Source: an uncultured Burkholderiales bacterium
GTDB taxonomy: Bacteria; Pseudomonadota; Gammaproteobacteria; Burkholderiales; Burkholderiaceae_C
DNA length: 64,000 nucleotides
Assembly: GCA_937873395.1 (NCBI GenBank)
Contig: CALMYH010000043.1
Location: 1-64,000, forward strand
Direction of reading: 5' to 3'
A model generated the notes under the pieces. That model searched no databases. It was not told the origin of the DNA and saw only the letters and a program-made list of their open reading frames with translations. This document shows positions 18,433 through 45,917 of the stretch, piece by piece (position 1 is the first letter of the stretch; the number at the start of each line of letters is the position of its first letter). Both the position numbers and the translations under genes were made by a program.

Positions 18433-18510
18433 ATTGCTCCCAATGCCGGACTCCTTCACTTTAAACTTTGTACGTCCAGCGCACAGACCTGGCGCTAAAT
18501 CGATGCAAAA

Positions 18511-23047: not shown

Positions 23048-23061
23048 GGTGGGGCCCTTCC

Positions 23062-24660: not shown

Positions 24661-24670
24661 GGCCCAGCCC

Positions 24671-26333: not shown

Positions 26334-26710
26334 GTCGGAACTCCCATGTTGAGGAATACAGCACACCCAAGGCCATCCGATCCTGCTGATCAAGTCACAT
26401 GCAGCAGATACCAGCGGCAAACTGTAGTAAGAACAAGAGCGAGGACCAGACCCTGTGTCACAATTTGTTCCTACATCTTTGATGTTAATCCAACATGGCT
26501 CAAGTCATACGTGAACAGATCGACGATTGTTGGACGTATCGCCAGTATCTGTAACCATGAAGGCTGGCCAACCAGGGCCATAGACGCCAGATGTGTTGGC
26601 TGTTTCTGCTTCCGAGACCACTCATTGACGAGATCAGCCGGGATCCATGGGCGTTACAAGGTCCAAATGGGAAGATGTGTGACCAGAACTCAATACTTGG
26701 ATCTCGGGTA
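26334..26710. promoter_or_regulatory. divergent intergenic region between the export operon and the glycosyltransferase/PKS-NRPS side
   Basis: About 380 bases separate the two oppositely transcribed halves of the exopolysaccharide locus, so both main promoters are expected here. The sequence is less GC-rich than the genes. I could not pick out a reliable -35/-10 pair or a palindromic operator. No ORF in it has protein-family character. Confidence 0.35.
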
Positions 26711-27676: not shown

Positions 27677-27699
27677 CAGATGGATGGGGAAATGACTTC

Positions 27700-29471: not shown

Positions 29472-29716
29472 AACATCTACAAAAACCGCACACGAACCCG
29501 CAGCGCCTGGCAGGCCATCAGCTTTTATGACATGGCAGCTGGATGAGTAATTGTCTGATGCGGTTTGCTCGATGAGCGTCCAGTAGTCCCGCTACGTCGT
29601 ACACCTCATGGCATTGGATAATGAACGTGCCTGACTGGAACGCGTGGTTGTTTTTTGGCAAGACTGCAGAAATTCAACGTGGCGTCGACCCTTTGGTTCT
29701 TACCGCGTATTCCACC

Positions 29717-30631
29717 ATGTACGAAGCTTTCTACGGCCTGAAGGAAAAACCCTTCTCCATCCAGCCGGACCCGGACTTTCTCTACATGGGCAAGCGGCAT
29801 TCGCTCGCCTACACCATGCTGCAGTACGCGCTGCAGAACCGCGCCGGCTTCACCGTCATCTGCGGCGAGATCGGGTGCGGCAAGACGACGCTGATCCGTC
29901 GGCTGCTCAACGAGCTGGGTGAAGGCGTCTCGGTCGGGCTGGTGACCAACACCCACCCCGATCTGGCCGACCTGACCGAGTGGATCATGCTGGCCTTCGG
30001 CCTGCCCTACGACCGGCTGACGCCGGTGGCGCGCTACGACGCCTTCCAGCGCTTCCTCATCAACGAGTACGGGCAGGGGCGACGGGTGGTGCTGATCGTC
30101 GACGAAGCCCAGAACCTGAGCGCACCGGCCATGGAGTCGCTGCGCATGCTCTCCAACATCAACGCCGACAAGGACCAGCTGCTGCAGATCATCCTGGTCG
30201 GCCAGCCGCAGCTGCGCGACCTGCTCAAGCGCCCCGAACTGCAGCAGTTTGCCCAGCGCGTCGCGGCCGACTTCTTCATTCCTCCGCTCAATTCGGTCGA
30301 AGTGGGCGATTACATCGAACACCGCCTGAAGGTGGCGGGCCGGGATCGCCAGCTGTTCACGCCGCTGGCCACCGCCAAGATCGCCAAGGCGGCCGGCGGC
30401 ATCCCGCGCAGCATCAACATCCTGTGTGACATGGCCCTGGTCTACGGCTTTGCGGCCGAGGCGCGCCTGATCGACGTGCACATCATCGACGAGGTGCTGC
30501 GCGACCGCAGCCACTACGGCGTGCTGGGCGACGTGAACTTCCACAGCAGCCAGCCGGCCGATCTGCGCTTGGTTGAAAGCTCTTCCGCCAGCGCGCGGCT
30601 CATGGACAACACACCTCCCCCAAAAGCGTGA
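29717..30631 (+). CDS. ExeA/GspA-type AAA ATPase
   Basis: 304 residues. It starts MYEAFYGLKEKPFSIQPDPDFLY, the signature of the ExeA-like ATPases of type II secretion and of exosortase/PEP-CTERM exopolysaccharide loci. Walker A is GEIGCGKTT at about residues 52-60, and Walker B is VVLIVDEAQNLS at about 125-136. A sensor-like LVGQPQLRDLL and arginine-rich GIPRSINILCDMAL follow. The ATG at 29717 is chosen because MYEAFYG is the family start. No exosortase or PEP-CTERM protein is visible in the window. The partner is unknown; it stands directly upstream of the PKS gene. Confidence 0.88.
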   Translation: MYEAFYGLKEKPFSIQPDPDFLYMGKRHSLAYTMLQYALQNRAGFTVICGEIGCGKTTLIRRLLNELGEGVSVGLVTNTHPDLADLTEWIMLAFGLPYDRLTPVARYDAFQRFLINEYGQGRRVVLIVDEAQNLSAPAMESLRMLSNINADKDQLLQIILVGQPQLRDLLKRPELQQFAQRVAADFFIPPLNSVEVGDYIEHRLKVAGRDRQLFTPLATAKIAKAAGGIPRSINILCDMALVYGFAAEARLIDVHIIDEVLRDRSHYGVLGDVNFHSSQPADLRLVESSSASARLMDNTPPPKA

Positions 30632-30721: not shown

Positions 30722-33700
30722 GTGACCACGCCCAGTTCATCCAGCAACGACATCGCCATCGTCGGCATGGCGGCTCACCTGCCGGGCGCCGCCAACCCGC
30801 AAGCCTACTGGGCCAATCTGCGCGCCGGCATCGAGTCGATCCGCCGTCTGAGCGAAGCCGAGCTGCTGGCCAACGGCGAAAACCCCGACCGCATGCGGCA
30901 CCGCAACTACGTGCCCGCGGCTGCCGTGCTCGATGGCTTCGAGCAGTTCGATGCCGACTTCTTCGGCTTCAGCCCCAAGGAAGCGGCCATCATGGACCCG
31001 CAGCACCGCCAGTTCCTGGAGGTGGCCTGGGAGGCGCTGGAGAACGCCGGCCATCCGCCCGAGCGTTTCCCCGGCCCGATCGCCGTCTATGCCGGCTGCG
31101 GCATGGGCAGCTACTTCTACTTCAACATCTGCTCCAACCGCGACCTGGTGGCCAGCACCGGCATGTTCCTGCTGCGCCACACCGGCAACGACAAGGACTT
31201 CCTGTCGACCCGGGTCAGCCACGTGTTCGACCTCAAGGGGCCGAGCGTCAACATCCAGACCGCGTGTTCGACCTCGCTGGTGGCGGTGCACCACGCCTGC
31301 CAGTCGCTGCTGCTGGGCGAATGCGACATGGCCCTGGCCGGGGGCGTGACCATCGAGCTGCCGCACGCGCGCGGCTACATCTTCCAGGAGGGCGAGATCC
31401 TCTCGCCCGACGGCCATTGCCATGCCTTCGATCACCGCGCCCAGGGCACGGTCTTCGGCTCGGGCGCTGGCGTGGTGGTCTTGCGCCGTCAGGAGGACGC
31501 GATCCAGGACGGTGACCACATCTGGGCCGTCATCAAGGGCACGGCGGTCAACAACGACGGAGCGGCCAAGGCAGGTTACCTGGCGCCCAGCGTGGACGGC
31601 CAGGCCAAGGCCATCGCTGAGGCGCACGCAGTGGCCGGTGTGCCGGCCGACACCATCGACTATGTCGAATGCCACGGCACCGGTACCTACCTGGGCGACC
31701 CGATCGAGGTGGCGGCGCTGACGCAGGCCTTTGCCGCGTCGACGCAGGACACCGGCTTCTGCCGCATCGGCTCGGTCAAGACCAACATCGGGCACCTGGA
31801 CACCGCGGCCGGCGTCGCCAGCCTGATCAAGGTCTCGCTGGCGCTCAAGCACCGCGAGCTGCCGCCCAGCCTGGGCTACGAGGCGCCGAACCCCGCCATC
31901 GACTTCGACTCCAGCCCCTTCCGCGTCAACGACACGCTGCGCGACTGGGTCTCGCACAAGGGGCCGCGGCGCGCCGGCGTCAACTCGCTGGGCGTGGGTG
32001 GCACCAACGCGCATGCGGTGGTCGAAGAAGCCCCGGAGCGCGCGCCCTCCGATCCGTCGGACTGGCCGTTCCAGCTGCTGGTGGTCTCGGGCCGCTCCAA
32101 GGCCGCACTGGAAGCCAACGCCAGAGCCCTGGCCGCCCACCTGCGGACCCACCCCGAACAGGACCTGGCCGATGTGGCCTGGACACTGAAAGAGGGCCGG
32201 CGTGCGTTCGAGCACCGCCGCGTGCTGGTCGCCGCCAGCCACGCCGAAGCCGCCGACCTGCTGGAGGGCAGCGACACCCGGCGCGTCTTCAACCACCAGC
32301 ACCTGGTCGACGACCCGGAAGTGGTGTTCATGTTCCCGGGCGGTGGCGCGCAGTACGCCGGCATGGCGCGCGAGCTCTACGCCACCGAGCCGGTGTTCCA
32401 GGACTGGATGGATCGCGGGCTGGATGTCCTGCAAAAGCGCATCGACTACGACATCCGCGCGCTCTGGCTGCCCGAGCCGCAGGACCATGCGCAGGCGGTC
32501 GAGCGGCTCAAGCGGCCCTCGGTGCAGCTGCCGCTGATCATGATCGTGGAGTATGCGCTGGCGCAGCTCTGGATGTCCTGGGGCGTCAAGCCCACGGCCC
32601 TGGTCGGCCACAGCATGGGCGAGAACACCGCTGCCTGCCTGGCCGGTGTCCTGTCGTTTGAGGACTGCATCGGCCTGGTGCACCTACGCGGCCAGCTGTT
32701 CGACACGGTGCCTCAGGGCGGCATGCTCAGCGTGCCGCAATCGGCCAGTGCGCTGCAGGCCGAACTCGGCGAAGGCCTGGACATGGCCAGTGTCAACGCG
32801 CCCGATCTGTGTGTGGTCTCGGGTCCGCAGCACCTGCTGGACGCACTGGAGGCTCGCCTGCGCGCGCGCGACATCGAACCGCAGCGCATCCCGATCGACA
32901 TCGCGGCCCACTCGCGCATGCTCGAGCCCATCCTGGGCCGCTTCGAAGCCTACCTGCGCAGCATCCGGCTGAACCCGCCGAAGCTGCCCATCATCTCCAA
33001 CCGCAACGGCGCCACACTCAGCGCGCAACAGGCCACCGACCCGATGTACTGGGTGGGCCACCTGCGCAACACGGTGCACTTTGCCGACTGCATGGCCACG
33101 CTGATGGCAGCCAACCCGCAGCGCGTCTACCTGGAGGTCGGCCCCGGCAAGGCGCTGGGCTCGCTGGCCCAGGCCAACGGCGTGCCGGCCTCGCAGGTCA
33201 TCAATTCGCTGCGCCACCCCGAACACGCGGTGCCCGACGACGTCTGGTTCATGGCCACCCTGGGTCGCCTGTGGGCGAACGGCGTTCCGGTCGACTGGGA
33301 GCCGATCTGGGGCGAGTCGCGCCGCCTGCGTGTGCCGCTGCCCACCTACGCTTTCCAGCGCAAGCCTTATTTCATCCAGCCCGGCGTGGCTGCCGCGCCT
33401 GCGGAAGAGGCGCGGCCTGCGCACATCGACGACATCACCCGCTGGGGCTACCAGCCGCGCTGGCGGCCCCGCACCGCCGACTGCGAGATCGACGTGGCGA
33501 CCGAACTGGGGCAGACCGAGCCCCGTCACTGGCTGGTGTTTGCCGACGAGGTCGGGCTGACCGATGCGGTCACCGCCCGCCTGCGCGAAGCCGGGCACCG
33601 GGTGACGGTGGTTCGGGCCGGTGACCTGTTCGCCCGGGTGGCCGAACACGAATACCTGCTGGCCCCGGAGCGTGGCCGCGAGGGCTACGACGAGCTGGTG

Positions 33701-36700
33701 CGCGAGCTCATGGCCAGCGGCCACCCGCCCCAGGCGGTGTTGCACGGCTGGCTGGTCACGCGCGAACAGCGCTTCCGCCCGGGCAGCAGCTTCTTCCACC
33801 GCAACCTCGAACAGGGCTTCTTCAGCCTGCTGTTCCTGGCGCAGGCGATGGCCGAGGAAAACCTGCCCAAGCCGATGCAGCTGACGGTGCTGAGCACCGG
33901 CGCCGTGCGGGTCAAGGACGAGCCCCTGCCCTACCCCGAAAAAGCCACGGTCGCCGGGCCGGTCAAGGTCGCCCCGCGCGAGCTGCCGGGCCTGAGCTGT
34001 GGCTGGCTGGACCTGCAGCTGCCCGAAGCACCCACCGGCTGGCGCGCCCGCCCGGATCCCGCCGCCCTGCAGGCCCTGGTCGACCCGGTACTCGAAGAGC
34101 TGCTGTCTTCGCCCGGCAACCGCCAGGCGGCCCTGCGCGGCCCGCGCCGGCTCGAACTGGGCTTTGCCCATCTGCCGCTGCCCCCGGCGGCCGACCTGAC
34201 CCCGCTGCCCGAACGGGCGGTGTGCCTGATCACCGGCGGCCTGGGCGGCATTGGCCTGACCGTGGCCGAGCGCCTGGCGCGCGAGAAACAGGCCCGGCTG
34301 GTGCTGCTGGCCCGCAGCCCGCTGCCGGCCCCCGAAACCTGGGACGAGGTGCTGCGCACCCGCAGCCCCGACGACCCCCAGGTGCGCCGCATCCTGGCCG
34401 TGCGCCATTTGCAGTCCCTGGGCAGCGAGGTCACGGTGCTGGCGGCCGATGTCTGCAACGTCAACGACATGCAGGCCGCGGCCCGCCAGGCGCAGGCGCT
34501 GGGTGGCCGCGTCCACCTGGTCGTGCACGCGGCCGGGGTGGTCGACGACGGACCGCTGCTGACCAAGACCTCGGGCCAGGTCGAAGAGGTGTTTGCGCCC
34601 AAGGTGCACGCGGTGCAGATCCTGGACGAGCTGTTCCCCGACGGCAGCATCGACACGCTGGTGCTGTTCTCGTCCACCAGCACGGTCACGGCGCCGGCCG
34701 GCCAGGTCGACTACGTGGCCGCCAACGGGTACCTCAACGCCTACGCGAGTCACCGCGCGGGCGGCAAGACCCGGGTGCTGGCCATCAACTGGGGCGTCTG
34801 GAACGAAGTCGGCATTGCCGCCTCGGCCATGGCCGAACGCCTGGGCGAAAAGCCCCCGGCCCCGCGCCACCCGGCCGGCCAGCCCCTGCTCGACGAGGCC
34901 AGTTTCGACAGCCAGGGGCACCGCCTGTTCAGCAGCACATTGCGCTGCGAGGACCGCTGGATCCTGGACGGCCACCGGACCAAGGCCGGACAGGCCCTGC
35001 TGCCGGGCACCGGCCATCTGGAGCTGGCAGCCGAGGCCTTGCGGGCCAACGGCGAGGTCGGCGGCTTCACCCTCGAAGACCTGTATTTCTTCCGGCCGCT
35101 GGAGGTCGACGACGACCAGGCCCGCCAGTTGCGGGTGCGCCTGGCGCGCAGCGAGGAAGGCTACCGCTACGAAGCCCGCAGCGATTGTCTCGTCGACGGC
35201 CGCACCGGCTTCCAGCTCAACGCCCAAGCCACGCTGCTGCCCGGCCAGCCCCCGGCGGCTGCCGCGCTCGACCTGCAGGCGCTGCTGGCGCGCTGCCCCT
35301 CCCACCGGGAAGAAGACCCGGCCGGCTGGCGCTCGCCCCAGGAATACCACCTGAATTTCGGTCCGCGCTGGCGCGTGGTGCGCTCGGTCGCCTACGGCCA
35401 GGGTGAAGGCTTGGCCCATCTGCAACTGCCCGCCGCCTTCGAAGACGACCTCAAGCAAGGCTGGCTGCTGCACCCGGCCCTGCTGGACCTGGCCACCGGC
35501 TGGGCCATGCGGCTGATCAGTGGCTATGCCCCCGACCACCTCTGGGTGCCGGTGTCCTACCGACGCGTGCGGGTGCACCGCCCCTTGCCGGCCACTGTCT
35601 GGAGCTGGATGCGCAACGCCCAGGACAACCGGTCCGACGCCCCCATGGCCGTGTTCGATGTCACCCTGTGTGATGAACAGGGCCAGGTCTGCCTGGAGGT
35701 CGAGGGCTTCTCGATCCGGCGCCTGGACGCCTCGGGCTTTGCCAGCAGCAGCCAGATCAACCCGCGCGAAGTCGAGTTCGACCCCGCCTCGCACGGGGGC
35801 ACGAGCGAACACAAGCTCTCGCCTGGCGAGGAGCAGCTGCAGTACAACATCTCGCAAGGCATACGGCCCGCCGAAGGCGCCGATGCCTTTGGCCGCGCCC
35901 TGGCCACCGGTTTGCCACAGGTCATCGTCTCGTCGATGGAGCTGGACGCGCTGGTGCGCCAGGCCGGCCAGTCGGTCGCCAGCGAAGGCGGCGACGGCCA
36001 GAAATTCCAGCGTCCCGATCTGGACAGCGAGTACATCGCGCCGCGCAACGACGTCGAACGCACGCTGGTCGGCTTCTGGGAAGAGTTGCTGGGCGTGAAC
36101 CAGGTCGGGGTGCAGGACAGCTTCTTCGACCTCGGTGGCCATTCGCTGATCGCGGTGCGCCTGTTCGCCATGATCAAGAAGGCCTACCGGGTCGAGTTCC
36201 CGATTTCGGTGCTGTTCGAGGCGCCCACCATCGCCCTGTGCGCCGAGATGATCCGCGAGCGCATCGGCGACACGGACAGCGGCGCGGCCGACGCCCCGGC
36301 AGTGCCCAAGGCGGCGCGGCGGCGCTTCACCCACCTGGTGGCCATGCACGACGGCGAGGGTGGTGCGCGCACCCCCTTCTTCCTCGTGGCCGGCATGTTC
36401 GGCAATGTGCTGAACCTGCGTCACCTGGCACGCCTGATCGGCGCCGACCGGCCCTTCTATGGCCTGCAGGCGCGGGGCCTGTACGGCGACCAGCCGCCAC
36501 ACGAGACCTTCGAAGAAGCGGCGGCCGACTGCATCGCCGAGATGCGTCAGGTGCAGCCGCACGGGCCTTACCTGCTGGGCGGATTCTCGGGCGGCGGCAT
36601 CACGGCCTACGAGATTGCGCGCCAACTCGAAGCGGCCGGTGAACGGGTCGATCTGCTGGTCCTGCTGGACACGCCGCTGCCCATGCGCCCGCCGCTCAGC

Positions 36701-37162
36701 CGCACCGACAAGGCCCTGATCAAATGGGCCGAACTGCGGCGGCGCGGCCCCGGTTTCCTGGTGCAATGGGTGCGCAACCGGATCCAGTGGGAGCTCGGAC
36801 GCAGCCAGCGCGCCCAGGCACCGGCACCGGTCACGAACCAGCTGAACAACGCCGCCATCGAGGCGGCCTTCCGAAACGCCCTGCCCGGATACCGGGTGCA
36901 GTCCTGGAGCGGTCCGGCCGTGCTGTTCCGCCCGCCGCTGGACCTGCACTGGAAGGTTTCGGGCGGGCGCTGGGTCAGCGCCGGGCGCGAATACGTCCAC
37001 CCGGACAACGACTGGACCCGCTTCATGCCGGCCTTGCGGGTGCTGGAGGTACCGGGTGACCACGATTCCATGGTGCTGGAGCCCAATGTGCGCGTGCTGG
37101 CCAGCCTGATGAAGGACTGCATCGCCCGCGCCGAGGCAGGGACCGGACGGAGCGGCGCATGA
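30722..37162 (+). CDS. type I polyketide synthase, KS-AT-KR-DH-ACP-TE
   Basis: A 2146-residue modular synthase starting at a GTG with AGAGG six bases upstream. The ketosynthase (about 8-435) has Cys182 in TACSTS and the two active-site His at 318 and 358. The acyltransferase (about 540-850) has Ser631 in GHSMG and a later IAAH (His730) in place of the usual HAFH or YASH, so extender choice is unclear. The ketoreductase has a structural half from about 900 and a NADPH loop GGLGGIG at 1172-1178, with Tyr1331 and Asn1335. A dehydratase-type double hot-dog follows, with His1418 and Asp1589. The carrier serine is Ser1808 in GGHS. The thioesterase carries Ser1956, Asp1983 and His2114. KR before DH is the reverse of the common order. 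It overlaps the downstream glycosyltransferase (ATGA). Confidence 0.92.
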   Translation: MTTPSSSSNDIAIVGMAAHLPGAANPQAYWANLRAGIESIRRLSEAELLANGENPDRMRHRNYVPAAAVLDGFEQFDADFFGFSPKEAAIMDPQHRQFLEVAWEALENAGHPPERFPGPIAVYAGCGMGSYFYFNICSNRDLVASTGMFLLRHTGNDKDFLSTRVSHVFDLKGPSVNIQTACSTSLVAVHHACQSLLLGECDMALAGGVTIELPHARGYIFQEGEILSPDGHCHAFDHRAQGTVFGSGAGVVVLRRQEDAIQDGDHIWAVIKGTAVNNDGAAKAGYLAPSVDGQAKAIAEAHAVAGVPADTIDYVECHGTGTYLGDPIEVAALTQAFAASTQDTGFCRIGSVKTNIGHLDTAAGVASLIKVSLALKHRELPPSLGYEAPNPAIDFDSSPFRVNDTLRDWVSHKGPRRAGVNSLGVGGTNAHAVVEEAPERAPSDPSDWPFQLLVVSGRSKAALEANARALAAHLRTHPEQDLADVAWTLKEGRRAFEHRRVLVAASHAEAADLLEGSDTRRVFNHQHLVDDPEVVFMFPGGGAQYAGMARELYATEPVFQDWMDRGLDVLQKRIDYDIRALWLPEPQDHAQAVERLKRPSVQLPLIMIVEYALAQLWMSWGVKPTALVGHSMGENTAACLAGVLSFEDCIGLVHLRGQLFDTVPQGGMLSVPQSASALQAELGEGLDMASVNAPDLCVVSGPQHLLDALEARLRARDIEPQRIPIDIAAHSRMLEPILGRFEAYLRSIRLNPPKLPIISNRNGATLSAQQATDPMYWVGHLRNTVHFADCMATLMAANPQRVYLEVGPGKALGSLAQANGVPASQVINSLRHPEHAVPDDVWFMATLGRLWANGVPVDWEPIWGESRRLRVPLPTYAFQRKPYFIQPGVAAAPAEEARPAHIDDITRWGYQPRWRPRTADCEIDVATELGQTEPRHWLVFADEVGLTDAVTARLREAGHRVTVVRAGDLFARVAEHEYLLAPERGREGYDELVRELMASGHPPQAVLHGWLVTREQRFRPGSSFFHRNLEQGFFSLLFLAQAMAEENLPKPMQLTVLSTGAVRVKDEPLPYPEKATVAGPVKVAPRELPGLSCGWLDLQLPEAPTGWRARPDPAALQALVDPVLEELLSSPGNRQAALRGPRRLELGFAHLPLPPAADLTPLPERAVCLITGGLGGIGLTVAERLAREKQARLVLLARSPLPAPETWDEVLRTRSPDDPQVRRILAVRHLQSLGSEVTVLAADVCNVNDMQAAARQAQALGGRVHLVVHAAGVVDDGPLLTKTSGQVEEVFAPKVHAVQILDELFPDGSIDTLVLFSSTSTVTAPAGQVDYVAANGYLNAYASHRAGGKTRVLAINWGVWNEVGIAASAMAERLGEKPPAPRHPAGQPLLDEASFDSQGHRLFSSTLRCEDRWILDGHRTKAGQALLPGTGHLELAAEALRANGEVGGFTLEDLYFFRPLEVDDDQARQLRVRLARSEEGYRYEARSDCLVDGRTGFQLNAQATLLPGQPPAAAALDLQALLARCPSHREEDPAGWRSPQEYHLNFGPRWRVVRSVAYGQGEGLAHLQLPAAFEDDLKQGWLLHPALLDLATGWAMRLISGYAPDHLWVPVSYRRVRVHRPLPATVWSWMRNAQDNRSDAPMAVFDVTLCDEQGQVCLEVEGFSIRRLDASGFASSSQINPREVEFDPASHGGTSEHKLSPGEEQLQYNISQGIRPAEGADAFGRALATGLPQVIVSSMELDALVRQAGQSVASEGGDGQKFQRPDLDSEYIAPRNDVERTLVGFWEELLGVNQVGVQDSFFDLGGHSLIAVRLFAMIKKAYRVEFPISVLFEAPTIALCAEMIRERIGDTDSGAADAPAVPKAARRRFTHLVAMHDGEGGARTPFFLVAGMFGNVLNLRHLARLIGADRPFYGLQARGLYGDQPPHETFEEAAADCIAEMRQVQPHGPYLLGGFSGGGITAYEIARQLEAAGERVDLLVLLDTPLPMRPPLSRTDKALIKWAELRRRGPGFLVQWVRNRIQWELGRSQRAQAPAPVTNQLNNAAIEAAFRNALPGYRVQSWSGPAVLFRPPLDLHWKVSGGRWVSAGREYVHPDNDWTRFMPALRVLEVPGDHDSMVLEPNVRVLASLMKDCIARAEAGTGRSGA

Positions 37163-38151
37163 GTGTGGCCTCCCTTCCCACTGTGCTGACCGTGGTGCTG
37201 AACTACCGCACACCCGATCTGGCGATCCGGGCGGTCGAAGCGGCGCTGGTCGCGATGGAGGGGCTGAGCGGCGCCATCACCGTGGTCGACAACGACTCCC
37301 AGGACGGGTCCTTCGAGCGTCTGTCCGAGGCCGTTCGGGCCCGCGGCTGGGACCGGGTGCGCGTGCTGCCATCGGGGCGCAACGGGGGCTACGGGGCTGG
37401 CAACAACTTCGGCATCCGCCAGGGCCTGCCCGACGGATCGAAACCCGACTTCGTCTACATCCTCAACTCCGACGCTTTCCCGGAGCCCGACGCCATTCGA
37501 CGCTTGCTCGACCCGCTGCAGGCGCATCCCGACGCCGGATTCGCCGGCAGCCGCCTGCACGGCGAGGACGGCGTCTACCACCAGACGGCCTTCCGCTTCC
37601 CGGGCATCTTCAGCGAGTTCGAAAGCGGTGCGGGCACGGGCCCCATTTCGCGGCTGCTCAGGCGCTACGTCGTGGCATTGCCCGAACCCAAAGAGGCCCA
37701 GTGGGTCGACTGGATGGCGGGGGCCAGTCTGCTGGTGCGCCAGCGGATGCTCGATGAAGTGGGTCTGTTCGACGAGACCTTCTTCCTGTATTTCGAAGAA
37801 ACCGACCTCTCGCTGCGGGCCCGGCGCGCCGGATGGAAGTCGGTCTATGTGCCCGAGAGCCGCGTCATGCACATCGGCTCGGTGTCCACCGGCATGAAGA
37901 CCTGGAAACGCATGCCATCCTTCTGGTTCGACTCCCGGCTGCACTACTTTGTCAAAAATCATGGCGTGGCCTATGCCACTGCCGCTACCTTGGCTTACAC
38001 GGCGGGCGCCATGATTTTCAAGCTGAGATCCGTGCTTGGAAAGAGACGTTCCGGCCCCGCCGAGCGCTTCCTTTCCGACCTGCTTCAACATGCCCTGCGC
38101 AGTGCGTGGCAACGCCGAATCGGTGCCGGCAGCGGGGCCAGCCCATCCTGA
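37159..38151 (+). CDS. family 2 glycosyltransferase between the PKS and NRPS genes
   Basis: 330 residues of the rhamnosyltransferase-like GT2 group. VLTVVLNYRTPDLAIRAVEA opens the GT-A fold, ITVVDNDSQDGSFE follows near residue 38, and GRNGGYGAGNNFGIRQ is typical of this group. The DXD-type metal site is ILNSDAFPEPDA, and WMAGASLLVRQRM and FLYFEETDLSLRARRAGW carry the acceptor-side acidic motif. The ATG overlaps the PKS stop, and the NRPS starts 30 bases downstream. Its product is therefore made together with both assembly-line enzymes. This implies a glycosylated polyketide/peptide, or a link between that product and the polysaccharide; which one is not shown. Confidence 0.88.
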   Translation: MSVASLPTVLTVVLNYRTPDLAIRAVEAALVAMEGLSGAITVVDNDSQDGSFERLSEAVRARGWDRVRVLPSGRNGGYGAGNNFGIRQGLPDGSKPDFVYILNSDAFPEPDAIRRLLDPLQAHPDAGFAGSRLHGEDGVYHQTAFRFPGIFSEFESGAGTGPISRLLRRYVVALPEPKEAQWVDWMAGASLLVRQRMLDEVGLFDETFFLYFEETDLSLRARRAGWKSVYVPESRVMHIGSVSTGMKTWKRMPSFWFDSRLHYFVKNHGVAYATAATLAYTAGAMIFKLRSVLGKRRSGPAERFLSDLLQHALRSAWQRRIGAGSGASPS

Positions 38152-38180
38152 CATTGCTTTTCCGATCACCGGAGCTCCCC

Positions 38181-41100
38181 ATGAGCCACTTCACCTGCGT
38201 CGTCATCGGCAACGAATCCCTGCTCATCCAGTGCGCCGAGCGCATCCGGCAGGGCGGCCACACCATCGGCGCGGTGGTCACCCGTCACCCCGACATCCGT
38301 CACTGGGCCACCGGCCTGGGCCTGCGCGTCGAGGCTCCCGGCCGGGATCTGGCCTCCCGCCTGGCCGACCTGGACTACGACTGGCTGCTGAGCATCGCCA
38401 ACCTGTCGGTGATCGACCAGGCCCTGATCGACAAGGCCCGGCAGGGCGCCATCAATTTCCACGACGGCCCGCTGCCGCGCCACGCGGGCCTGAACGCGCC
38501 GGTGTGGGCCATCCTGGCCGGCGAAAAACAGCACGGCGTGACCTGGCACCTGATGCAGGGCGGCATCGACGAAGGCGACATCCTCAAGCAGAAGCTGTTC
38601 GACCTGGCCCCGCAGGAAACCGCGCTGACCCTCAACACGCGCTGCTACGAAGCGGCCATCGAGAGCTTCGAAGAGCTGCTGGGCGAGCTGCAGGCCGGCA
38701 CGGTCCTGCGCACGCCGCAGGACCTGAGCCAGCGCAGCTACCACGCCCGGCTGGACCGGCCCGCCGCAGCTGCGCGCCTCGACCTGGCCCGTCCGGCCCA
38801 CGAGGTGCTGGCGCTGGTGGCCGCGCTCGACCATGGCAGCTACTGGAATCCGCTGTGCCTGCCCAAGCTTGAAACCGGTGGCCGTGTATTGGCCGTCGGC
38901 TCGGCCGCATTGGAAGCCGATGCGACGCCAGTGCCGCCGGGTCAGGTGGTCGAAGCCACCATGGGTGGCCTGGTGGTGGGCACCGGCTCGACCCCGGTCC
39001 GGCTGACCGGCCTGCGCGACATGAGCGGTCAGGCGGTCTGCCCGACCTCCGTGGCCAAGGCCGGCGAACGCCTGGTCCTGCCGGACGCCGCGTCGGCTCA
39101 GCTGCTGTCCGACGCCCTGGCGCGGGTGGTCGGTGGTGAAGCCGCCTGGCGGCGCTGCCTGCAGGCGCCCGAACCGGTCGAGCTGCCGTCGGTAAGCACC
39201 GGCAACGGGCAGGCCGACTGGCGGCCGATCGGCCTGAGCCTGCCCGCTGGTCTGGACGGCTCCCGCCTGGCCGCTGTGGTCGCGGCCTGGGCGGCCCGGA
39301 TCAGCGGTCGCACCGTGCTCGACCTGGCCTGGCGCGCGGCCGATGCGCCCCTGCTGCCCGGCCATTTCTCGACCTGGGTTCCTCTGCGTCTGAGCGCCAG
39401 CAACGACACCCGCTTCGGCGAGTTCGAACAACAGGTGGAACGTCTGCTGGAACCCGCGCGACGCCACCCGGCGTTCCTGCTCGACCTCGTGTTGCGCGAC
39501 CCGGCCATCCGCGCGCTGAACCTGCCGCAGCTCGGCGTGAACGAGGCCTTCGGCGCCATCGACGGTTGCGCCGTGACGGTGGCGCTGACCGGCACGAACG
39601 GGCCGACGCTGTGGTTCGACGCCAGCCGCCTGTCCGAGTCCGCCGCCCAGGAACTGGCCCAACGCCTGCAGCGCGCGGCCGAGACACTGAGCGCACCGGG
39701 CGGGCAGGATCTGAGCCTGGGCGCCCTCTCGCTGATGTCGGCCGCCGAGCGCCAGCGCGTGCTGTACGACTGGAACGAGACCCGCTGCGACTACGAACGC
39801 CAGACCTGCGTGCACCAGTTCTTCGAGCAACAGGTGCAGCGAACCCCCGACGCCACCGCCGTGGTGTTCGAGGACGAGGCGCTGAGCTACGACCAGCTCA
39901 ACCGCCGCGCCAACCGGGTGGCGCACCGGCTCGCCACCATGGGTGTCAAACCGGGCACCCTGGTCGGCCTTTACACCCGGCGTTCGCTGGACCTGCTGGT
40001 GGGTGCGCTGGCCATCCAGAAGGCCGGTGGGGGCTATGTGCCGCTGGACCCGGCCTACCCGGCCGACCGCATCGCGCTCTACATCGAGGACAGCGGTGCA
40101 CCGGTCATCGTGGCCCAGTCCGGACTGCTCGATGACCTGCCGCCCCACCAGGCCCAGGTGCTGGTGATCGACCAGGACGCCGCCATTTCCGCCCAGCCCG
40201 AGGACGACCTGGACAGCGGCGTGCAGCCCTCGGACATCGCCTACATGATCTACACCTCGGGCTCGACCGGCCGGCCCAAGGGTGTCATGGTCGAGCACCG
40301 CAACGTGGCCAACTTCTTCCGCGGCATGGACGACCGCATCGAGCACGACCCGCCGGGCGTCTGGCTGGCGGTGACCAGCCTGTCCTTCGACATCTCGGTG
40401 CTGGAGTTGTTCTACACCCTGGCGCGCGGCTTCAAGCTGGTGCTCTCCAGCGACGAAAACCGCGCCCTGGTCTCCAGCGGCCGCCTGCCGCTGTCGGCCA
40501 GCCAGATGGACTTCAGCATCTACTACTGGGGCAACGACGACGGCGCCGGTCCCAAGAAGTACGAATTGCTGCTCGAAGGCGCCAAGTTCGCCGACACCCA
40601 CGGCTTCTGCGCGGTCTGGACGCCCGAGCGCCACTTCCACGCCTTCGGCGGACCGTACCCGAACCCCTCGGTCACCGGGGCTGCCGTGGCCGCAGTGACC
40701 CGCAACATCGCGGTGCGTGCGGGCAGCTGCGTGGTGCCGCTGCACCACCCGGCGCGCATCGCCGAAGAGTGGGCCGTCATCGACAACCTGACCAACGGCC
40801 GCGCCGGCCTGGCCGTGGCCTCCGGCTGGCACCCGGACGACTTCGTCTTGCGGCCCGAGAACACGCCGCCGGCCAACCGCCAGGCCCTGTTCGAGGCCAC
40901 CGAGCAGATCCGCCGCCTGTGGCGCGGCGAGGCGGTCGAGTTTCCCACCCAGACCGGCACCTTCGCGGTCAGGACCCAGCCCCGTCCGGTGTCCAAGGAG
41001 CTGCCGATCTGGGTCACCATCGCCGGCAACCCCGAAACCTGGCGCGAGGCGGGTCAGGTCGGCGCCCACGTGCTGACCCACCTGCTCGGCCAGTCGATCG

Positions 41101-42809
41101 ACGAGGTGGCCGACAAGATCCGCATCTACCACGACGCCTTGCGCGCCGCCGGTCGCGATCCGGCGCAGTTCAAGGTCACGCTGATGCTGCACACCTATGT
41201 GGCGCGCGACCGCGAGCAGGCCCGCGAGACCGCCCGCGGCCCCATGAAAGACTACCTGCGCAGCGCCGCTGGCCTGATCAAGCAGTACGCCTGGGCCTTC
41301 CCGGCCTTCAAGAAGCCCCAGGGCGTGACCAACCCGGCCGAGATCGACATCCGCACCCTGGATGCCGAAGAACTGGAGGGCATCCTGGACTTCGCCTTCC
41401 AGCGCTACTTCGAGGATTCGGGCCTGTTCGGCACCGTCGACGACTGCCTGCAACGCGTCGAACAGCTCAAGCGCATCGGCGTCACCGAGGTGGCCTGCCT
41501 GATCGACTACGGCATCCCGAGCGAAAAGGTCATGGAAGGCCTGTACCCGCTGGCCGAGGTGCTGCGCCGCTCCAACGAGCCGGCGCAGTTGCCGGCCGAC
41601 GACTTCTCCATCGCGGCGCAGATCGTGCGCCATGGCGTGACCCACCTGCAGTGCACGCCCAGCATGGCGCGCATGATCGCCATGAACGACGAGGCCCGCA
41701 TGGCGCTGGCCCGGGTCAAGCTGATGATGATCGGGGGCGAGGCCCTGCCCGGCACCCTGGTGGCCGAACTGGGCCGTTACACCCAGGCCCGCATCGAGAA
41801 CATGTACGGTCCGACCGAGACCACCATCTGGTCGTCCACCGAGACCGCCAGCCCCGACGAATCGGTGGTGAACATCGGCCGCCCGATCGCCAACACCCAG
41901 CTCTACGTGCTCGACGAGCACCGCGAACCGGTGGCTGTCGGTGTGCCGGGCGAGCTCTACATCGGTGGCGACGGGGTGACCCGAGGCTACTGGCAGCGCC
42001 CCGACCTGACCGCCGAGCGATTCGTACCCGACCCCTTCGTGAAACCCGAGTGCGCAGCCCCCGGCGGTGCCCGCATGTACCGCACCGGTGACCTGGCGCG
42101 CTGGCGACCCGACGGCCGCATCGACTTCCTGGGCCGGGCCGACTTCCAGGTCAAGATCCGCGGCTACCGCATCGAGCTGGGCGAAATCGAAGCCGTGCTC
42201 GAAGGCCAGCCCGGCGTGCGCCAGGCCGTGGTGGTGGCGCGCGAAGACAACCCAGGCGACGTGCGCCTGGTGGCCTACCTGCGCACCGACCCGGGCGTCT
42301 CGACCGATGCGCTGCGTGAAGCCATGGCCGCCGTGCTGCCCGAGCACATGCTGCCAGCCCATTTCGTGACGGTGGACGAGTTCCCGCTCACGCCCAACCG
42401 CAAGGTCGACCGCAAGGCACTGCCCGCACCCGGCGCCGCCAGCCCGCAACGGGCGGCGACCGAGGCCTATGTGGCGCCGGAAAACGAGATCGAGCAGAAG
42501 ATTGCCGAGATTTGGGTCAAGGTGCTGGGCGTGCCGCGCGTGGGCTCCAAGGACAACTTCTTCGCCCTGGGCGGCCACTCGCTGCTGGCCGTGCAGGCGC
42601 ACCGCGAAATCCGCCAGAGCCTCGGCACCAGCAAGCTGAGCATCACCGACATCTTCCGCTTCCCGGTGCTCGAAGCCCTGGCGCGGCACCTGGACGACAG
42701 GCCCGAGGACACGGCGGCGACCGCTGCCGAGACGGCCGAGCGGGCCCAGTTGCGCGCCGACGCGATGTCAAGACGGCGGGCGATGCGGGCGGGGCAGGGA
42801 ACGAACTGA
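38181..42809 (+). CDS. NRPS: formyltransferase - degenerate C - A interrupted by luciferase-like monooxygenase - PCP
   Basis: 1542 residues; GGAG precedes the ATG. Residues 1-300 are a formyltransferase with Asn92, His94 and Asp130, the same spacing as in methionyl-tRNA formyltransferase. Residues about 330-520 resemble the second half of a condensation domain but lack an HHxxxDG motif. Adenylation begins about 535, with the phosphate-binding YTSGSTGRPKG at 691 and FDIS at 736. A MupA/Atu3671-type flavin monooxygenase (MDFSIYYWGNDD onward) occupies about 776-1125. Adenylation resumes with the NMYGPTETT motif at 1207 and Lys1408. The carrier serine is Ser1467 in GGHS. My reading of the ten-residue specificity code is DILQMGMIWK, near the glycine code DILQLGLIWK. 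Insertion between A4 and A5 matches, as I recall, the glycine-hydroxylating modules MtaG and MelG of myxothiazol and melithiazol. Confidence 0.92.
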   Translation: MSHFTCVVIGNESLLIQCAERIRQGGHTIGAVVTRHPDIRHWATGLGLRVEAPGRDLASRLADLDYDWLLSIANLSVIDQALIDKARQGAINFHDGPLPRHAGLNAPVWAILAGEKQHGVTWHLMQGGIDEGDILKQKLFDLAPQETALTLNTRCYEAAIESFEELLGELQAGTVLRTPQDLSQRSYHARLDRPAAAARLDLARPAHEVLALVAALDHGSYWNPLCLPKLETGGRVLAVGSAALEADATPVPPGQVVEATMGGLVVGTGSTPVRLTGLRDMSGQAVCPTSVAKAGERLVLPDAASAQLLSDALARVVGGEAAWRRCLQAPEPVELPSVSTGNGQADWRPIGLSLPAGLDGSRLAAVVAAWAARISGRTVLDLAWRAADAPLLPGHFSTWVPLRLSASNDTRFGEFEQQVERLLEPARRHPAFLLDLVLRDPAIRALNLPQLGVNEAFGAIDGCAVTVALTGTNGPTLWFDASRLSESAAQELAQRLQRAAETLSAPGGQDLSLGALSLMSAAERQRVLYDWNETRCDYERQTCVHQFFEQQVQRTPDATAVVFEDEALSYDQLNRRANRVAHRLATMGVKPGTLVGLYTRRSLDLLVGALAIQKAGGGYVPLDPAYPADRIALYIEDSGAPVIVAQSGLLDDLPPHQAQVLVIDQDAAISAQPEDDLDSGVQPSDIAYMIYTSGSTGRPKGVMVEHRNVANFFRGMDDRIEHDPPGVWLAVTSLSFDISVLELFYTLARGFKLVLSSDENRALVSSGRLPLSASQMDFSIYYWGNDDGAGPKKYELLLEGAKFADTHGFCAVWTPERHFHAFGGPYPNPSVTGAAVAAVTRNIAVRAGSCVVPLHHPARIAEEWAVIDNLTNGRAGLAVASGWHPDDFVLRPENTPPANRQALFEATEQIRRLWRGEAVEFPTQTGTFAVRTQPRPVSKELPIWVTIAGNPETWREAGQVGAHVLTHLLGQSIDEVADKIRIYHDALRAAGRDPAQFKVTLMLHTYVARDREQARETARGPMKDYLRSAAGLIKQYAWAFPAFKKPQGVTNPAEIDIRTLDAEELEGILDFAFQRYFEDSGLFGTVDDCLQRVEQLKRIGVTEVACLIDYGIPSEKVMEGLYPLAEVLRRSNEPAQLPADDFSIAAQIVRHGVTHLQCTPSMARMIAMNDEARMALARVKLMMIGGEALPGTLVAELGRYTQARIENMYGPTETTIWSSTETASPDESVVNIGRPIANTQLYVLDEHREPVAVGVPGELYIGGDGVTRGYWQRPDLTAERFVPDPFVKPECAAPGGARMYRTGDLARWRPDGRIDFLGRADFQVKIRGYRIELGEIEAVLEGQPGVRQAVVVAREDNPGDVRLVAYLRTDPGVSTDALREAMAAVLPEHMLPAHFVTVDEFPLTPNRKVDRKALPAPGAASPQRAATEAYVAPENEIEQKIAEIWVKVLGVPRVGSKDNFFALGGHSLLAVQAHREIRQSLGTSKLSITDIFRFPVLEALARHLDDRPEDTAATAAETAERAQLRADAMSRRRAMRAGQGTN

Positions 42810-42811
42810 AC

Positions 42812-43567
42812 ATGGCAAGCGTCGCGCCGATGCACCAAGGGCTGCAAACCCAGTTGCGAGCCCACATGGGTCCGAACGTGGCGGTCATTTGTTCAGGCGT
42901 GGATGGCGACCCGGACACGCTGTGGAGCGAAGAACGAGCAGCCATCGCTCAGGCCATTCCCCGACGGCAGCGTGAATTCGCCGCTGGCCGAGCAGCGGCG
43001 AGGCAGGCCATGAAACTGCTGGGCTGGCCTGCCTGCCCAGTGCCAGCCAACCCGGACAGGTCACCCTGTTGGCCTGCGGGACTGACCGGCTCGCTTTCGC
43101 ATTCATCGACAGTTTGTGTGGTTGTGCTGGGAAGGAATGAGCTCTGTCATTCGATAGGCATCGACATTGAAACAGACGGTGGCATCGAGCCATTGCTGTG
43201 GGATACCATTTGCTCTCGCTCCGAACTGGCATGGCTCTCATCGTTGCCGGAGCATGAGAGGTCTCTTCAGGTGTCTCGCATATTCACCGCCAAAGAAGCC
43301 CTTTACAAGTCACGTCCGCCCAAGGAACAGACTCAACTGGAGTTTCAGAGCGCTACGACCCTTTGGATTCGCATGAGTCAAGATTTCCAAGCATTCCGGA
43401 TTTTCACCGAAGCAGCTCATGACAAATGGCACAACGGCTATTGCATGACCGGACAAGGCTTCGTGATCTCTTGGGTTGCCGAGATCGCGAGGGCCCGTCA
43501 AAAAGAACACACGGCACCTCAAGTGTGCCCCGCAGCCAGCACTCTTTCGTCACCCGCTAGATTCTGA
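42812..43567 (+). CDS. 4'-phosphopantetheinyl transferase (EntD/Sfp type)
   Basis: 251 residues. It converts apo carrier domains to the holo form using CoA. Signatures are an N-terminal EERAAIAQA and RQREFAAGRAAARQA, then GLTGSLSHSSTVCVVV, the Mg-binding IGIDIE near residue 115, and FTAKEALYK near 160. It starts two bases after the NRPS stop, so the operon carries its own activation enzyme for the ACP (Ser1808 of the PKS) and PCP (Ser1467 of the NRPS). It may also serve other synthases in the cell. The base composition falls towards its 3' end, where the following glycosyltransferase is also less GC-rich. Confidence 0.9.
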   Translation: MASVAPMHQGLQTQLRAHMGPNVAVICSGVDGDPDTLWSEERAAIAQAIPRRQREFAAGRAAARQAMKLLGWPACPVPANPDRSPCWPAGLTGSLSHSSTVCVVVLGRNELCHSIGIDIETDGGIEPLLWDTICSRSELAWLSSLPEHERSLQVSRIFTAKEALYKSRPPKEQTQLEFQSATTLWIRMSQDFQAFRIFTEAAHDKWHNGYCMTGQGFVISWVAEIARARQKEHTAPQVCPAASTLSSPARF

Positions 43568-43580
43568 TGGGATCGCCACC

Positions 43581-44825
43581 ATGACCCGTGCCAATGTTGA
43601 CTTTTCTGCTGTCAAGGAAAGATTGACCAAGGTCAGGTACCTGTTGGTTTGCCCCATTGGATGGGCTCGTGACGAACAAGGTGATATATGGACAGACCGC
43701 CTTTGGGCGAAAGACTTGCTGCTGCATTTTGAGTATTTGACGGAGGTTACCGTCCTGGCCCCCGAAAAAAAGCTCTTTCGAGGCCAGTCAACCGACGATT
43801 GGATCAAATTGGACCCGAACCCAGCCGGCCTGAAATTCAGAAACTTACCGATCGGCGACTCAATCGGCGGGGCCTTGCTCAGGCTACCCGCCCAGTTGTT
43901 CAAATCCGCAAGTGCCATACTTCAATCCGACGTGGTGCACAGTGGGGCAGCTGGTTGGCCGATTCCGCCAGGACTTGCAGTCAACCCTCTGGCAGTCCTG
44001 CTGGGAAGGCCTCTCGTGCTGGTGTTCGAAAGTGCCTTTTGGCGCAATTACAGCCAGAGAAAATCTCTTAAGGCGCGTCTGCGTCACTGGTTCACGGAAG
44101 GGTTTGCAAAATGGTCTTGCAGGAATTCACGTCTTGCCATCTTTACCCATCAAGGGTACCTGAAGGAGTTGCTGCCTGCTCCCAAAGCCAGGAACCATGT
44201 GCTTGTCTCCCCGGCCAGTTGGATAGATGAGGCGACCACGTTGAATGCACAAGAAGCGATCGAAAGCTGGCACAAAAAGCCTACACACATTCAGCTTCTT
44301 GTCGCGGCTCGACTCGTGAAAGAAAAGGGTATCGCCTCGGTGATGGCCGTCATTGAGGAGGCCGAAATGCGAAAAATACCGCTTCGCATCGACTTCATTG
44401 GGGAGGGCCCAATGAAGAGTCAATTGATCTTGTTATCCGAGAGAGTTCGCCATGCAACAGTCAGAGTACTGGACCCCATTCCGTATGGCGAACCTTTTTT
44501 TTCTTTGATTCGGAACTATCATGCCTTGCTGGTCCCGACACTGTCTGATGAGCAACCCCGGGTGATATTCGACTCTTTCTCGCAGGCGGTTCCCGTCATC
44601 GCCTCAAGCACCGCCGGGAATCGAGATTTGATTTCAGATGGGATTACAGGCATCCTGTACAACCACTTGTCACATAAATCTCTCCTTGAGGCTGTCCGAG
44701 CATTGACGCCTCAATCATTGGAAAAAATGGGTTTGGCAGGTCTCAACCAGGCTGAACAGAGAACCCATCAAGCCATGCACCATGCAAGAGCCATCAAGCT
44801 CTGTGAAGTCCTCCTGGATACATGA
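43581..44825 (+). CDS. GT-B (family 4-like) glycosyltransferase
   Basis: 414 residues. The N-terminal half begins YLLVCPIGWARDEQGDIWTDR and the C-terminal half has LLVAARLVKEKGIASVM, IDFIGEGPMKSQLI and a donor site LVPTLSDEQPRVIFDSFSQAVPVI with STAGNRDLISDGITG. Thus only part of the family E-x7-E is kept (DEQPRVIFDSF). It begins 14 bases after the phosphopantetheinyl transferase stop and is visibly AT-richer than the PKS and NRPS, suggesting a different origin. Its position at the end of the assembly-line operon favours glycosylation of the PKS/NRPS product or use of that product as acceptor. Confidence 0.82.
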   Translation: MTRANVDFSAVKERLTKVRYLLVCPIGWARDEQGDIWTDRLWAKDLLLHFEYLTEVTVLAPEKKLFRGQSTDDWIKLDPNPAGLKFRNLPIGDSIGGALLRLPAQLFKSASAILQSDVVHSGAAGWPIPPGLAVNPLAVLLGRPLVLVFESAFWRNYSQRKSLKARLRHWFTEGFAKWSCRNSRLAIFTHQGYLKELLPAPKARNHVLVSPASWIDEATTLNAQEAIESWHKKPTHIQLLVAARLVKEKGIASVMAVIEEAEMRKIPLRIDFIGEGPMKSQLILLSERVRHATVRVLDPIPYGEPFFSLIRNYHALLVPTLSDEQPRVIFDSFSQAVPVIASSTAGNRDLISDGITGILYNHLSHKSLLEAVRALTPQSLEKMGLAGLNQAEQRTHQAMHHARAIKLCEVLLDT

Positions 44826-45107
44826 GAGCCTCATGGCATCTAGAGTTTAATTTGCTAAATGTCGTATCTTGAATGGTTGCTGCTGGCATTCCTTCACTCG
44901 TTGTCGGTATTTTCAACAAGGCTATGAACTCCAATTTTCAGGGACAAGGTCACGCGGTCCGGGTGGCGGATGTCATGCTCAGCCATCCGGACGAACACCG
45001 GCCCCAACACGATGCTGGCACCTGATAATGATGTTTCCTTTCTTGCCGCGCCGCGAAAGCTGACCCTAAACTTCAGGCAATCCCCAGCAACCACTCCGAA
45101 TAACCCC

Positions 45108-45917
45108 ATGTCAATTATCAATAACCTCGACCGCGATGCGCTGCGCAAAAGTTATCAAGCTGCGCGCCCGTTCCCACATATGGTGGTGGACAACTTCCTG
45201 GCTCCGGAAGCGGCGGTTGCAGCGGCCGGCTCGTTTTTCAGTTTCGACGAAGCCCGGGCGCGCGGCTTCGAGTTCAAGGCCGTCAACGAGAACCTGAAGA
45301 TCCAGATCACCGACCCCAGCAAGTTTCCGCCGGCGATTGCAAAGCTCGCCGATGCCTTGTCGAGCCCGGAGTTCATTCGGGATCTGTCGTACATCTCAGG
45401 CATCGACAACCTTGTCTGGGATCCGACCTACTCTGGCGGAGGCATGCACCAGACCGCGAAGTCAGGCTGGCTTGATGTTCACGTCGACTTCAACTACAAC
45501 GAGGCACTGCAGATGCACCGTCGACTCAACATCCTCGTCTACCTGAACCCGGTGTGGGAAGAGGGGTGGGGCGGCTTGCTTGAACTCTGGGACCCGGAAG
45601 TGCAGCACTGCGGTCAGCGGGTGGTACCGTCGTTCAACCGCTGCGCCGTCTTCTCGACGAGCGCGATCAGCTTTCACGGAGTGACTGCGGTGACGTGTCC
45701 GGACGGCAAGCAGCGATGTTCGTTCGCTGCGTACTACTACACGCGCGAGGCGCCCGCCGGCTGGGATGGCACCAAGCACTCGACGATCTTCAAGGCACGC
45801 CCGGACGAGTACCTCAAGAAACATGTGCTCATGCCCGCCGAGGCCGCCAAACGCGCAGCGGGCCGCGGCATCGGTGCACTGAAGGGCGGGATCAAGAAAA
45901 TGGTGGGGCGTGACTGA
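45108..45917 (+). CDS. 2-oxoglutarate/Fe(II)-dependent oxygenase
   Basis: 269 residues of the prolyl-4-hydroxylase-like 2OG-Fe(II) oxygenase group. The iron ligands are visible as His125 and Asp127 in DVHVDF and His190 in SFHGV, and an Arg in KQRCSF, ten to twenty residues later, is suited to bind the 2-oxoglutarate carboxylate. The N-terminus FPHMVVDNFLAPEAA and the LNILVYLNP strand are also typical. The start ATG at 45108 is chosen because MSIINNLDRDALR opens the fold. It stands about 280 bases after the last glycosyltransferase in the same direction, so it may be a separate unit. Hydroxylation of a sugar, a peptide or the PKS/NRPS product is possible. Confidence 0.87.
   Translation: MSIINNLDRDALRKSYQAARPFPHMVVDNFLAPEAAVAAAGSFFSFDEARARGFEFKAVNENLKIQITDPSKFPPAIAKLADALSSPEFIRDLSYISGIDNLVWDPTYSGGGMHQTAKSGWLDVHVDFNYNEALQMHRRLNILVYLNPVWEEGWGGLLELWDPEVQHCGQRVVPSFNRCAVFSTSAISFHGVTAVTCPDGKQRCSFAAYYYTREAPAGWDGTKHSTIFKARPDEYLKKHVLMPAEAAKRAAGRGIGALKGGIKKMVGRD

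Follow-up and report, generated by a model that had tools for sequence, protein, structure and literature searches.

What are a polyketide synthase (PKS) and a nonribosomal peptide synthetase (NRPS) doing inside a bacterial polysaccharide locus? This question is raised by a 64,000-nucleotide stretch of DNA (contig C43:1-64000, hereafter the window) from a 3.70 Mb genome of the genus Hydrogenophaga, assembled in 183 contigs. In the window, genes encoding an ATPase, a PKS, a family 2 glycosyltransferase (GT2), an NRPS and a 4'-phosphopantetheinyl transferase (PPTase) are tightly spaced within 29621-43567, as identified with Pfam and NCBIfam. We propose that the genes from PKS to PPTase, here called the block, probably make a small acyl unit for the polysaccharide of the same locus, to which this unit would be attached; its substrate, its oxidation, the number of extensions and the attachment itself are what we infer.

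The PKS-NRPS block lies within a polysaccharide locus

The block and the genes that frame it are listed here (aa, amino acids; bit scores are given with the family cut-offs).

29621..30631, plus strand: ATPase, TIGR03015-like (281.6 bits, under the cut-off of 324.5)
30722..37162, plus strand: type I PKS, 2146 aa, KS-AT-(structural KR)-KR-DH-ACP-TE
37159..38151, plus strand: GT2 glycosyltransferase, 330 aa
38181..42809, plus strand: putative NRPS initiation module, 1542 aa
42812..43567, plus strand: PPTase, Sfp type, with 4PPT_N and ACPS domains, 251 aa
43581..44825, plus strand: GT-B glycosyltransferase, accessory
44970 (or 45108)..45917, plus strand: 2-oxoglutarate (2OG)-Fe(II) oxygenase, accessory
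25773..26420, minus strand: Wza-like export protein (TIGR03027, 127.7 bits, under the cut-off of 180)
24671..25771, minus strand: protein encoded between wza and wzz, no Pfam match
23062..24837, minus strand: Wzz-like chain-length protein, "type B" (TIGR03007, 207.6 bits, under the cut-off of 278.85)
22181..23182, minus strand: tyrosine autokinase (TIGR03018, 154.9 bits, under the cut-off of 230.65)

A first-pass annotation of this DNA had listed PKS, GT2, NRPS, PPTase, GT-B and 2OG genes; all of them are present, and the core ones have orthologs. It had also described the genes from PKS to GT-B as overlapping or lying less than 30 bases apart. Indeed, PKS and GT2 overlap by 4 bp, and the following gaps are 29 bp (GT2 to NRPS), 2 bp (NRPS to PPTase) and 13 bp (PPTase to GT-B), while the 2OG gene starts 144 bp (ATG at 44970) or 282 bp (ATG at 45108) beyond GT-B. 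The NRPS start is most likely 38181, not 37833, and the PPTase start at 42812 is the first ATG past the NRPS stop. As described earlier, the block follows the ATPase (gap of 90 bp) and the Wza/Wzz/kinase genes run on the minus strand; two glycosyltransferases, one open reading frame (ORF) without family match and the ATPase lie between these divergent genes and the PKS. With Wzx, Wzy, Wza, Wzz/kinase and glycosyltransferases together, the window carries a Wzx/Wzy-type polysaccharide locus.

Predicted chemistry of the assembly line

The NRPS is composed of a formyltransferase domain (residues ~1-299), the C-terminal half of a condensation domain (~335-530), an A domain and a PCP. The A domain is interrupted at residues ~778-1127 by a luciferase-like monooxygenase (MOX), TIGR04020, which scores 480.2 bits against a cut-off of 244.45 (residues 894-1243 of the ORF 37833-42809) and is flanked by AMP-binding stretches. 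Neither the formyltransferase nor the monooxygenase appeared in the first-pass annotation. The formyltransferase domain retains the catalytic N, H and D residues. The segment ahead of the A domain matches the C-terminal lobe of C domains only, without the catalytic HHxxxDG motif, and the condensation family PF00668 gave no match across the window's genome; on these grounds a peptide-forming NRPS was rejected, and the NRPS module described earlier is not supported as one that condenses. From its domains, the NRPS looks like an initiation module that lacks a complete condensation domain.

The A-domain code, DILQ(M)GMIWK, is of the glycine type and agrees at nine of ten positions with the code reported for MOX modules in PMC12283262; its fifth position differs between orthologs. 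In the PKS, the catalytic motifs are present. The only other PF01648 match in the window's genome, besides the PPTase, is a 161-aa frame. The assembly line had been considered short enough for a small substituent, and its domain make-up fits a small aminoacyl-derived acyl unit. Following domain logic, this unit would have a formyl-glycine starter, extended once and then processed by KR and DH.

The block tracks one export type in Hydrogenophaga

We searched 67 Hydrogenophaga genomes (G000-G066). The union of the NRPS and PKS searches placed the block in 19 of them, one (G018) by an NRPS piece alone; TIGR04020 was over its cut-off in 17/67, and the PKS was found at 75% identity or more in 18/67, in some cases fragmented. 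We compared 16 loci besides that of the window, leaving out G035 and G041. The order ATPase-PKS-GT2-NRPS-PPTase is kept in 14 of the 16, and the other two, G004 and G018, are cut by contig ends. The Wza/Wzz/kinase genes lie within the compared stretch in 11 of the 16 loci. Elsewhere, they are found ~30 kb upstream of the block (G024), the export genes are farther upstream (G012), or Wzz is located on the same contig as the 5' part of the PKS and the ATPase (G004) or on a different contig from the block (G063 and G065).

The block tracks one exopolysaccharide (EPS) export type in this genus. The type B Wzz (187-250 bits) is encoded in 17 of the 19 block genomes, compared with one of the 48 others (Fisher p 8.8e-13), and the two block genomes without it, G018 and G035, are 87% and 55% complete. 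In contrast, the canonical XrtA-type Wzz, over its cut-off, occurs in none of the 19 block genomes and in 21 of the 48 others (Fisher p 2.6e-4). The joint conservation of block and export genes, which the first-pass annotation had named as a check, is seen within Hydrogenophaga, but it is not exclusive, since G003 has this export type without the block.

The GT-B and 2OG genes, which had been counted as parts of the block, were rejected as core parts because neither has a conserved place in the 16 other loci. A GT-B relative occurs in one of them (G062, 33% identity, adjoining the PPTase on the opposite strand), and 2OG relatives occur in three (G005, G062 and G065), at other distances and none adjoining the PPTase. 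Other glycosyltransferase genes follow the PPTase in Aminobacter and Paracoccus liaowanqingii. The G+C content at third codon positions is 0.61 for the PPTase and 0.58 for GT-B, compared with 0.82-0.91 for PKS, GT2 and NRPS. The protein encoded at 24671-25771 has relatives in 11 Hydrogenophaga loci (94-100% coverage, 29-58% identity).

Some genomes depart from this pattern. In H. pseudoflava NBRC 102511 (G054; L051/L103), the PKS is split across two reading frames, which may reflect a sequencing error or decay. Five genomes (G011, G027, G038, G046 and G064) carry a different PKS gene pair, with frames of ~1500-1600 and 4230 aa that are 42-47% identical to part of the window PKS and lie on one contig in four of the five. 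Two NRPS loci with a luciferase-like monooxygenase from the same order (G119 and G142) were rejected as orthologs, since identity was ~45% and limited to a portion of the protein; with window proteins as queries, these loci showed no EPS gene.

Polysaccharide genes adjoin the block outside the genus

Relatives of the PKS (49-62% identity) and the NRPS (49-58%) adjoin each other on plasmids of Ruegeria, Parasedimentitalea, Paracoccus, Aminobacter, Shinella, Neorhizobium and Rhizobium. In the annotated plasmid records, their neighbours are sugar transferases, glycosyltransferases, flippases, export proteins and O-antigen-ligase-type genes. The arrangement varies: the PKS of Aminobacter, Shinella, Neorhizobium and Rhizobium lies on the opposite strand, and no GT2 separates it from the NRPS. 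A Methylobacterium plasmid has relatives of both at about 40% identity, side by side, with a sugar-nucleotide dehydrogenase, an aminotransferase, a GT4 and an epimerase in the flanks by Pfam.

A genome scan covered the best 80 of at least 552 stretches encoding an NRPS relative (E 1e-3), mostly from Rhodobacteraceae by title, with flanks that extended at most 10 kb beyond either end of the match. In these 80 loci, the PKS is present in 78, a GT2 adjoins the NRPS in 78 and a PPTase lies within 400 bp in 73. At least one further polysaccharide gene is found in the flanks of 75 loci and at least two in 63; without the eight Hydrogenophaga-type loci, the figure is 69/72. With the same queries, a match was obtained in only 1/20 arbitrary 20-kb Hydrogenophaga regions and 1/20 Rhodobacteraceae regions. 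Homologous blocks are thus not found mainly outside polysaccharide loci, in agreement with the setting first proposed for the window.

Because the polysaccharide queries came from the window and from the relatives' own loci, neighbour families were also counted without chosen queries. In the 80 loci, the most frequent were NRPS (80), GT2 (79), PKS (78) and PPTase (71), followed by a GT2 family (42), a Wzx-like family (40), another GT2 family (39), a 523-aa family (34), Wzz (33) and a Wzy-like family (31), and further by GT4 (29), WecG (27), SGNH (25), a kinase-like family (24), a GFO/IDH-epimerase family (21) and a second GT4 family (20). None of the top 16 neighbour families is an exporter, regulator or resistance family. 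The 523-aa family (L181:7990-9558) has no Pfam match. The NRPS is single-copy (E 1e-100) in all 12 Rhodobacteraceae genomes searched. Overall, the evidence favours a dedicated pathway for an acyl unit as part of the polysaccharide locus.

Probable order of synthesis and evolutionary history

In Aliiroseovarius, an F-A-MOX-A-PCP-type gene is followed by a single gene encoding KS-AT-KR-DH-ACP-C-A-PCP-TE. By analogy, this arrangement suggests that synthesis runs from the NRPS to the PKS. With Aliiroseovarius as root, a 91-tip NRPS tree groups all 13 Hydrogenophaga sequences in a single clade (support 1.0); its sister group is a Rhodobacteraceae subset including Gemmobacter, Cypionkella and Rhodobacter (0.98). 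Among 399 genomes of the order, a sample with few Hydrogenophaga, a full-length close PKS match occurs only in the window's own genome; ten others pass E 1e-300 at 45% identity or less, nine of them over the KS-to-KR part only. The simplest history is a single transfer from Rhodobacteraceae to Hydrogenophaga.

An SGNH partner gene and alternative NRPSs

In Ruegeria conchae, the operon runs on, with a 4-bp overlap, into a protein without Pfam match. In the family of this partner, G-H-S-L and D-x-I-H, the SGNH pattern, are invariant in 23 aligned members; the alignment omitted L107 (truncated at the end of the stretch) and L171 (interrupted by a stop). The partner is present in 25/80 genome loci within the stretches covered, and in Hydrogenophaga it occurs in 17 of the 19 block genomes, compared with two of the 48 others (Fisher p 8.0e-12). 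There, its N-terminus is lipoprotein-like by eye; in the window's genome, the gene lies on contig C121. SGNH proteins frequently acylate or deacylate polysaccharides, and such a partner therefore fits an acylated polymer.

The locus of G003 (L204-L205, G003:C1:395000-434999) has the type-B export genes, glycosyltransferases and an SGNH protein, and the PKS block is absent. In its place stands another NRPS, a 1364-aa frame that is 34% identical over nearly its full length to a Paracoccus C-A-PCP-TE protein; this is a natural swap of an NRPS for the PKS block. In H. pseudoflava (L103:18768-24770), the polysaccharide locus itself also encodes, immediately ahead of the SGNH gene, a 2001-aa NRPS that consists of a FAAL-like A domain (fatty-acyl-AMP-ligase-like, PF23024), PCP, C, A, PCP and TE. 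Relatives of this protein are found downstream of the PPTase in 9/14 Hydrogenophaga loci covering that stretch. The NRPSs of G003 and H. pseudoflava indicate that assembly-line enzymes take more than one form in these polysaccharide loci, of which the PKS-NRPS block may be one interchangeable option.

Two Paracoccus polysaccharide loci (L094:674-4549 and L102:6882-10937) carry an extra NRPS directly before a WecG-type glycosyltransferase; in L094, it is a C-A-PCP-TE protein.

Proposed role of the block

In our model, the PPTase would arm the PCP of the NRPS and the ACP of the PKS. The A domain would load glycine as starter, which the formyltransferase domain would N-formylate and the monooxygenase domain would oxidise at the alpha carbon. 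The PKS would accept this starter and add one malonyl-type unit, with reduction by KR and dehydration by DH, to give a C4 unit of the 4-formamido-3-hydroxybutanoyl or 4-formamidobut-2-enoyl type, perhaps alpha-oxidised, which the TE would release or hand over. This acyl unit would be put on a repeat-unit sugar, GT2 adding that sugar or the next one, and Wzx, Wzy, Wza, Wzz and the kinase would flip, polymerise and export the chain. Finally, the SGNH and acyltransferase family 3 (AT3) proteins would finish the acylation pattern. A monooxygenase is odd in a starter module: by analogy with myxothiazol, hydroxylation of formyl-glycine might break the product down, so formylation and oxidation may occur in either order.

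We consider it rather unlikely that the cassette makes a free small molecule, such as a signal, a metallophore or an antibiotic, that is co-regulated with polysaccharide loci or merely carried in them. It is true that the PKS ends in a TE, that luciferase-like MOX and F domains also occur in the synthesis of free natural products and that the distant Aliiroseovarius relatives sit in another assembly line. In addition, the Phaeobacter inhibens PKS Inhi_1972 and NRPS Inhi_1974, two locus tags apart, are listed as PKS/NRPS genes among secondary-metabolite genes in PMC4062626 and are possibly this pair; a Phaeobacter sp. locus (L182) carries the block. However, the excess of adjoining polysaccharide genes over both sets of control regions, the glycosyltransferase gene next to the NRPS in 78/80 loci and the lack of exporter, regulator and resistance families among the top 16 neighbour families all argue against a free product.

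Even if the product belongs to the polymer, the PKS could act iteratively, so that its product is a longer chain with some unsaturation, used by the polymer as an acyl chain or as a lipid or lipid-like anchor. A role of this kind has been proposed for further one-module PKSs encoded with capsules. Capsule loci are known to include one-module PKSs (PMC3908369), and acyl-lipid chemistry may be available in view of the fatty-acyl-AMP-ligase-like domain of the H. pseudoflava NRPS in the same locus. We regard this as improbable, given a starter protein of the formyl-glycine type, the absence of an enoylreductase domain and a TE that terminates the same protein. Least likely of all, and by our judgement very doubtful, is that an amino sugar is the substrate of the formyltransferase domain, as it is for ArnA, and that the remaining protein has another purpose. 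The best relatives of this domain by sequence and fold, methionyl-tRNA formyltransferase, ArnA and 10-FTHFD, do not include gramicidin synthetase LgrA; the fold comparison, with a model of the formyltransferase plus half C domain, spanned residues 1-299, and LgrA was not among the 50 matches listed. On the other hand, LgrA, in which an F domain precedes the A domain, also matches the domain by sequence, and in the aligned orthologs, formyltransferase and glycine-type A domain are parts of one protein (G018 is cut by a contig end, and the G142 protein is not an ortholog), the exception being a Paracoccus record (L098) that annotates it as a separate overlapping gene.

Several observations weigh against an acyl unit made for the polymer. 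Gene neighbourhood is no proof of attachment, and the terminal TE could release a free acid. The A-domain code positions were taken from motifs, with no structure alignment, and the spacing of the DH motif, judged by eye, is odd, leaving its activity uncertain. As G003 shows, the export system does not need the block. Furthermore, 26 of the 48 Hydrogenophaga genomes without the block have neither Wzz type, and the genome counts treat related species as independent. No polysaccharide gene was detected with the EPS queries around the Methylobacterium and Aliiroseovarius relatives, and five of the 80 loci have no other polysaccharide gene in the stretch covered; of these, two are on short contigs (L106 and L114), one spans 18.5 kb (L149) and two are full-length (L108 and L147).

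The presence, within polysaccharide clusters of two bacterial classes, of enzymes typical of antibiotic-like molecules suggests an unusual small amino-acid-derived acyl group for the secreted polymer. More tentatively, it is possible that in widespread polysaccharides of Rhodobacteraceae, Rhizobiales and Hydrogenophaga, the repeat unit regularly bears a formyl-glycine-started polyketide made by a dedicated operon that has passed between classes. If so, a single locus would encode a polyketide-peptide-polysaccharide conjugate. As a rule, polymers are decorated with acetyl, pyruvyl, simple acyl or amino acid groups; a unit made by an assembly line would be a new kind of building block for biofilm polymers. 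It would also explain what a PKS/NRPS pair common in Rhodobacteraceae is for, one hitherto viewed, if at all, as natural-product genes.

Other genes of the window

To the left of the kinase are an IS5 transposase, a carbamoyltransferase, three SGNH/GDSL-type proteins, Wzx, Wzy, WecG and an AT3 acyltransferase; an asparagine-synthase-type amidotransferase and a UDP-GlcNAc 2-epimerase are also found farther left. The IS5-type transposase, at 20948-21925, has the kinase on one side and the carbamoyltransferase on the other.

26591..27676, plus strand: GT2-type glycosyltransferase (EpsD/MftF-like match under cut-offs)
27334..28269: ORF without family match
28086..29471, plus strand: GT4 glycosyltransferase, EpsE-like
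18511..20346, minus strand: carbamoyltransferase (NodU-like)
17302..18459, minus strand: SGNH protein, AlgX-type domain
15970..17130, minus strand: GDSL/SGNH-type protein (weak Pfam match)
13266..14450, minus strand: GDSL/SGNH-type protein (weak Pfam match under cut-off)
10297..11850, minus strand: Wzx-type flippase
8804..10309, minus strand: Wzy/O-antigen-ligase-type polymerase (Wzy_C)
5489..6607, plus strand: acyltransferase family 3, candidate polymer acyltransferase
3218..4111, plus strand: WecG/TagA/CpsF glycosyltransferase

Comparison with known systems

In the literature searched, with subscription journals mostly outside its coverage, this cassette is not described from polysaccharide loci. 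The block resembles the RkpA/WcbR-type enzymes of capsule loci (PMC3908369) in having a one-module type I PKS inside a polysaccharide locus. In a comparison by description only, it differs from them in its formyl-glycine-type NRPS starter, its operon GT2 and its PKS TE.

The Wza, Wzz, kinase and ATPase proteins of the window are homologous to those of XrtA/PEP-CTERM EPS systems, but all four match the XrtA-named families below their cut-offs, and we therefore view the locus as a divergent relative rather than a canonical XrtA system. No exosortase XrtA was seen among the scanned window proteins, and no search aimed at XrtA was made.

The NRPS is comparable to F-A-PCP initiation modules such as that of gramicidin LgrA, as a formyltransferase is fused to A and PCP domains, there is no complete condensation domain and the module appears to start a chain. 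Unlike those modules, it has a monooxygenase in the A domain, half a C domain and a polysaccharide-locus setting. Formyl-glycine starters occur in oxazolomycin and conglobatin. The NRPS also resembles A-MOX glycine modules (TIGR04020), which have a glycine-type A domain with an inserted luciferase-like monooxygenase. However, MOX modules of the myxothiazol/melithiazol type act at the end of the chain and leave a terminal amide, whereas the block NRPS appears to start the chain. Finally, DltA and DltC, which function in the D-alanylation of teichoic acids, provide a parallel in which an A domain and a carrier protein ready an acyl unit for a cell-surface polymer; in the block, in contrast, a PKS would extend that unit.

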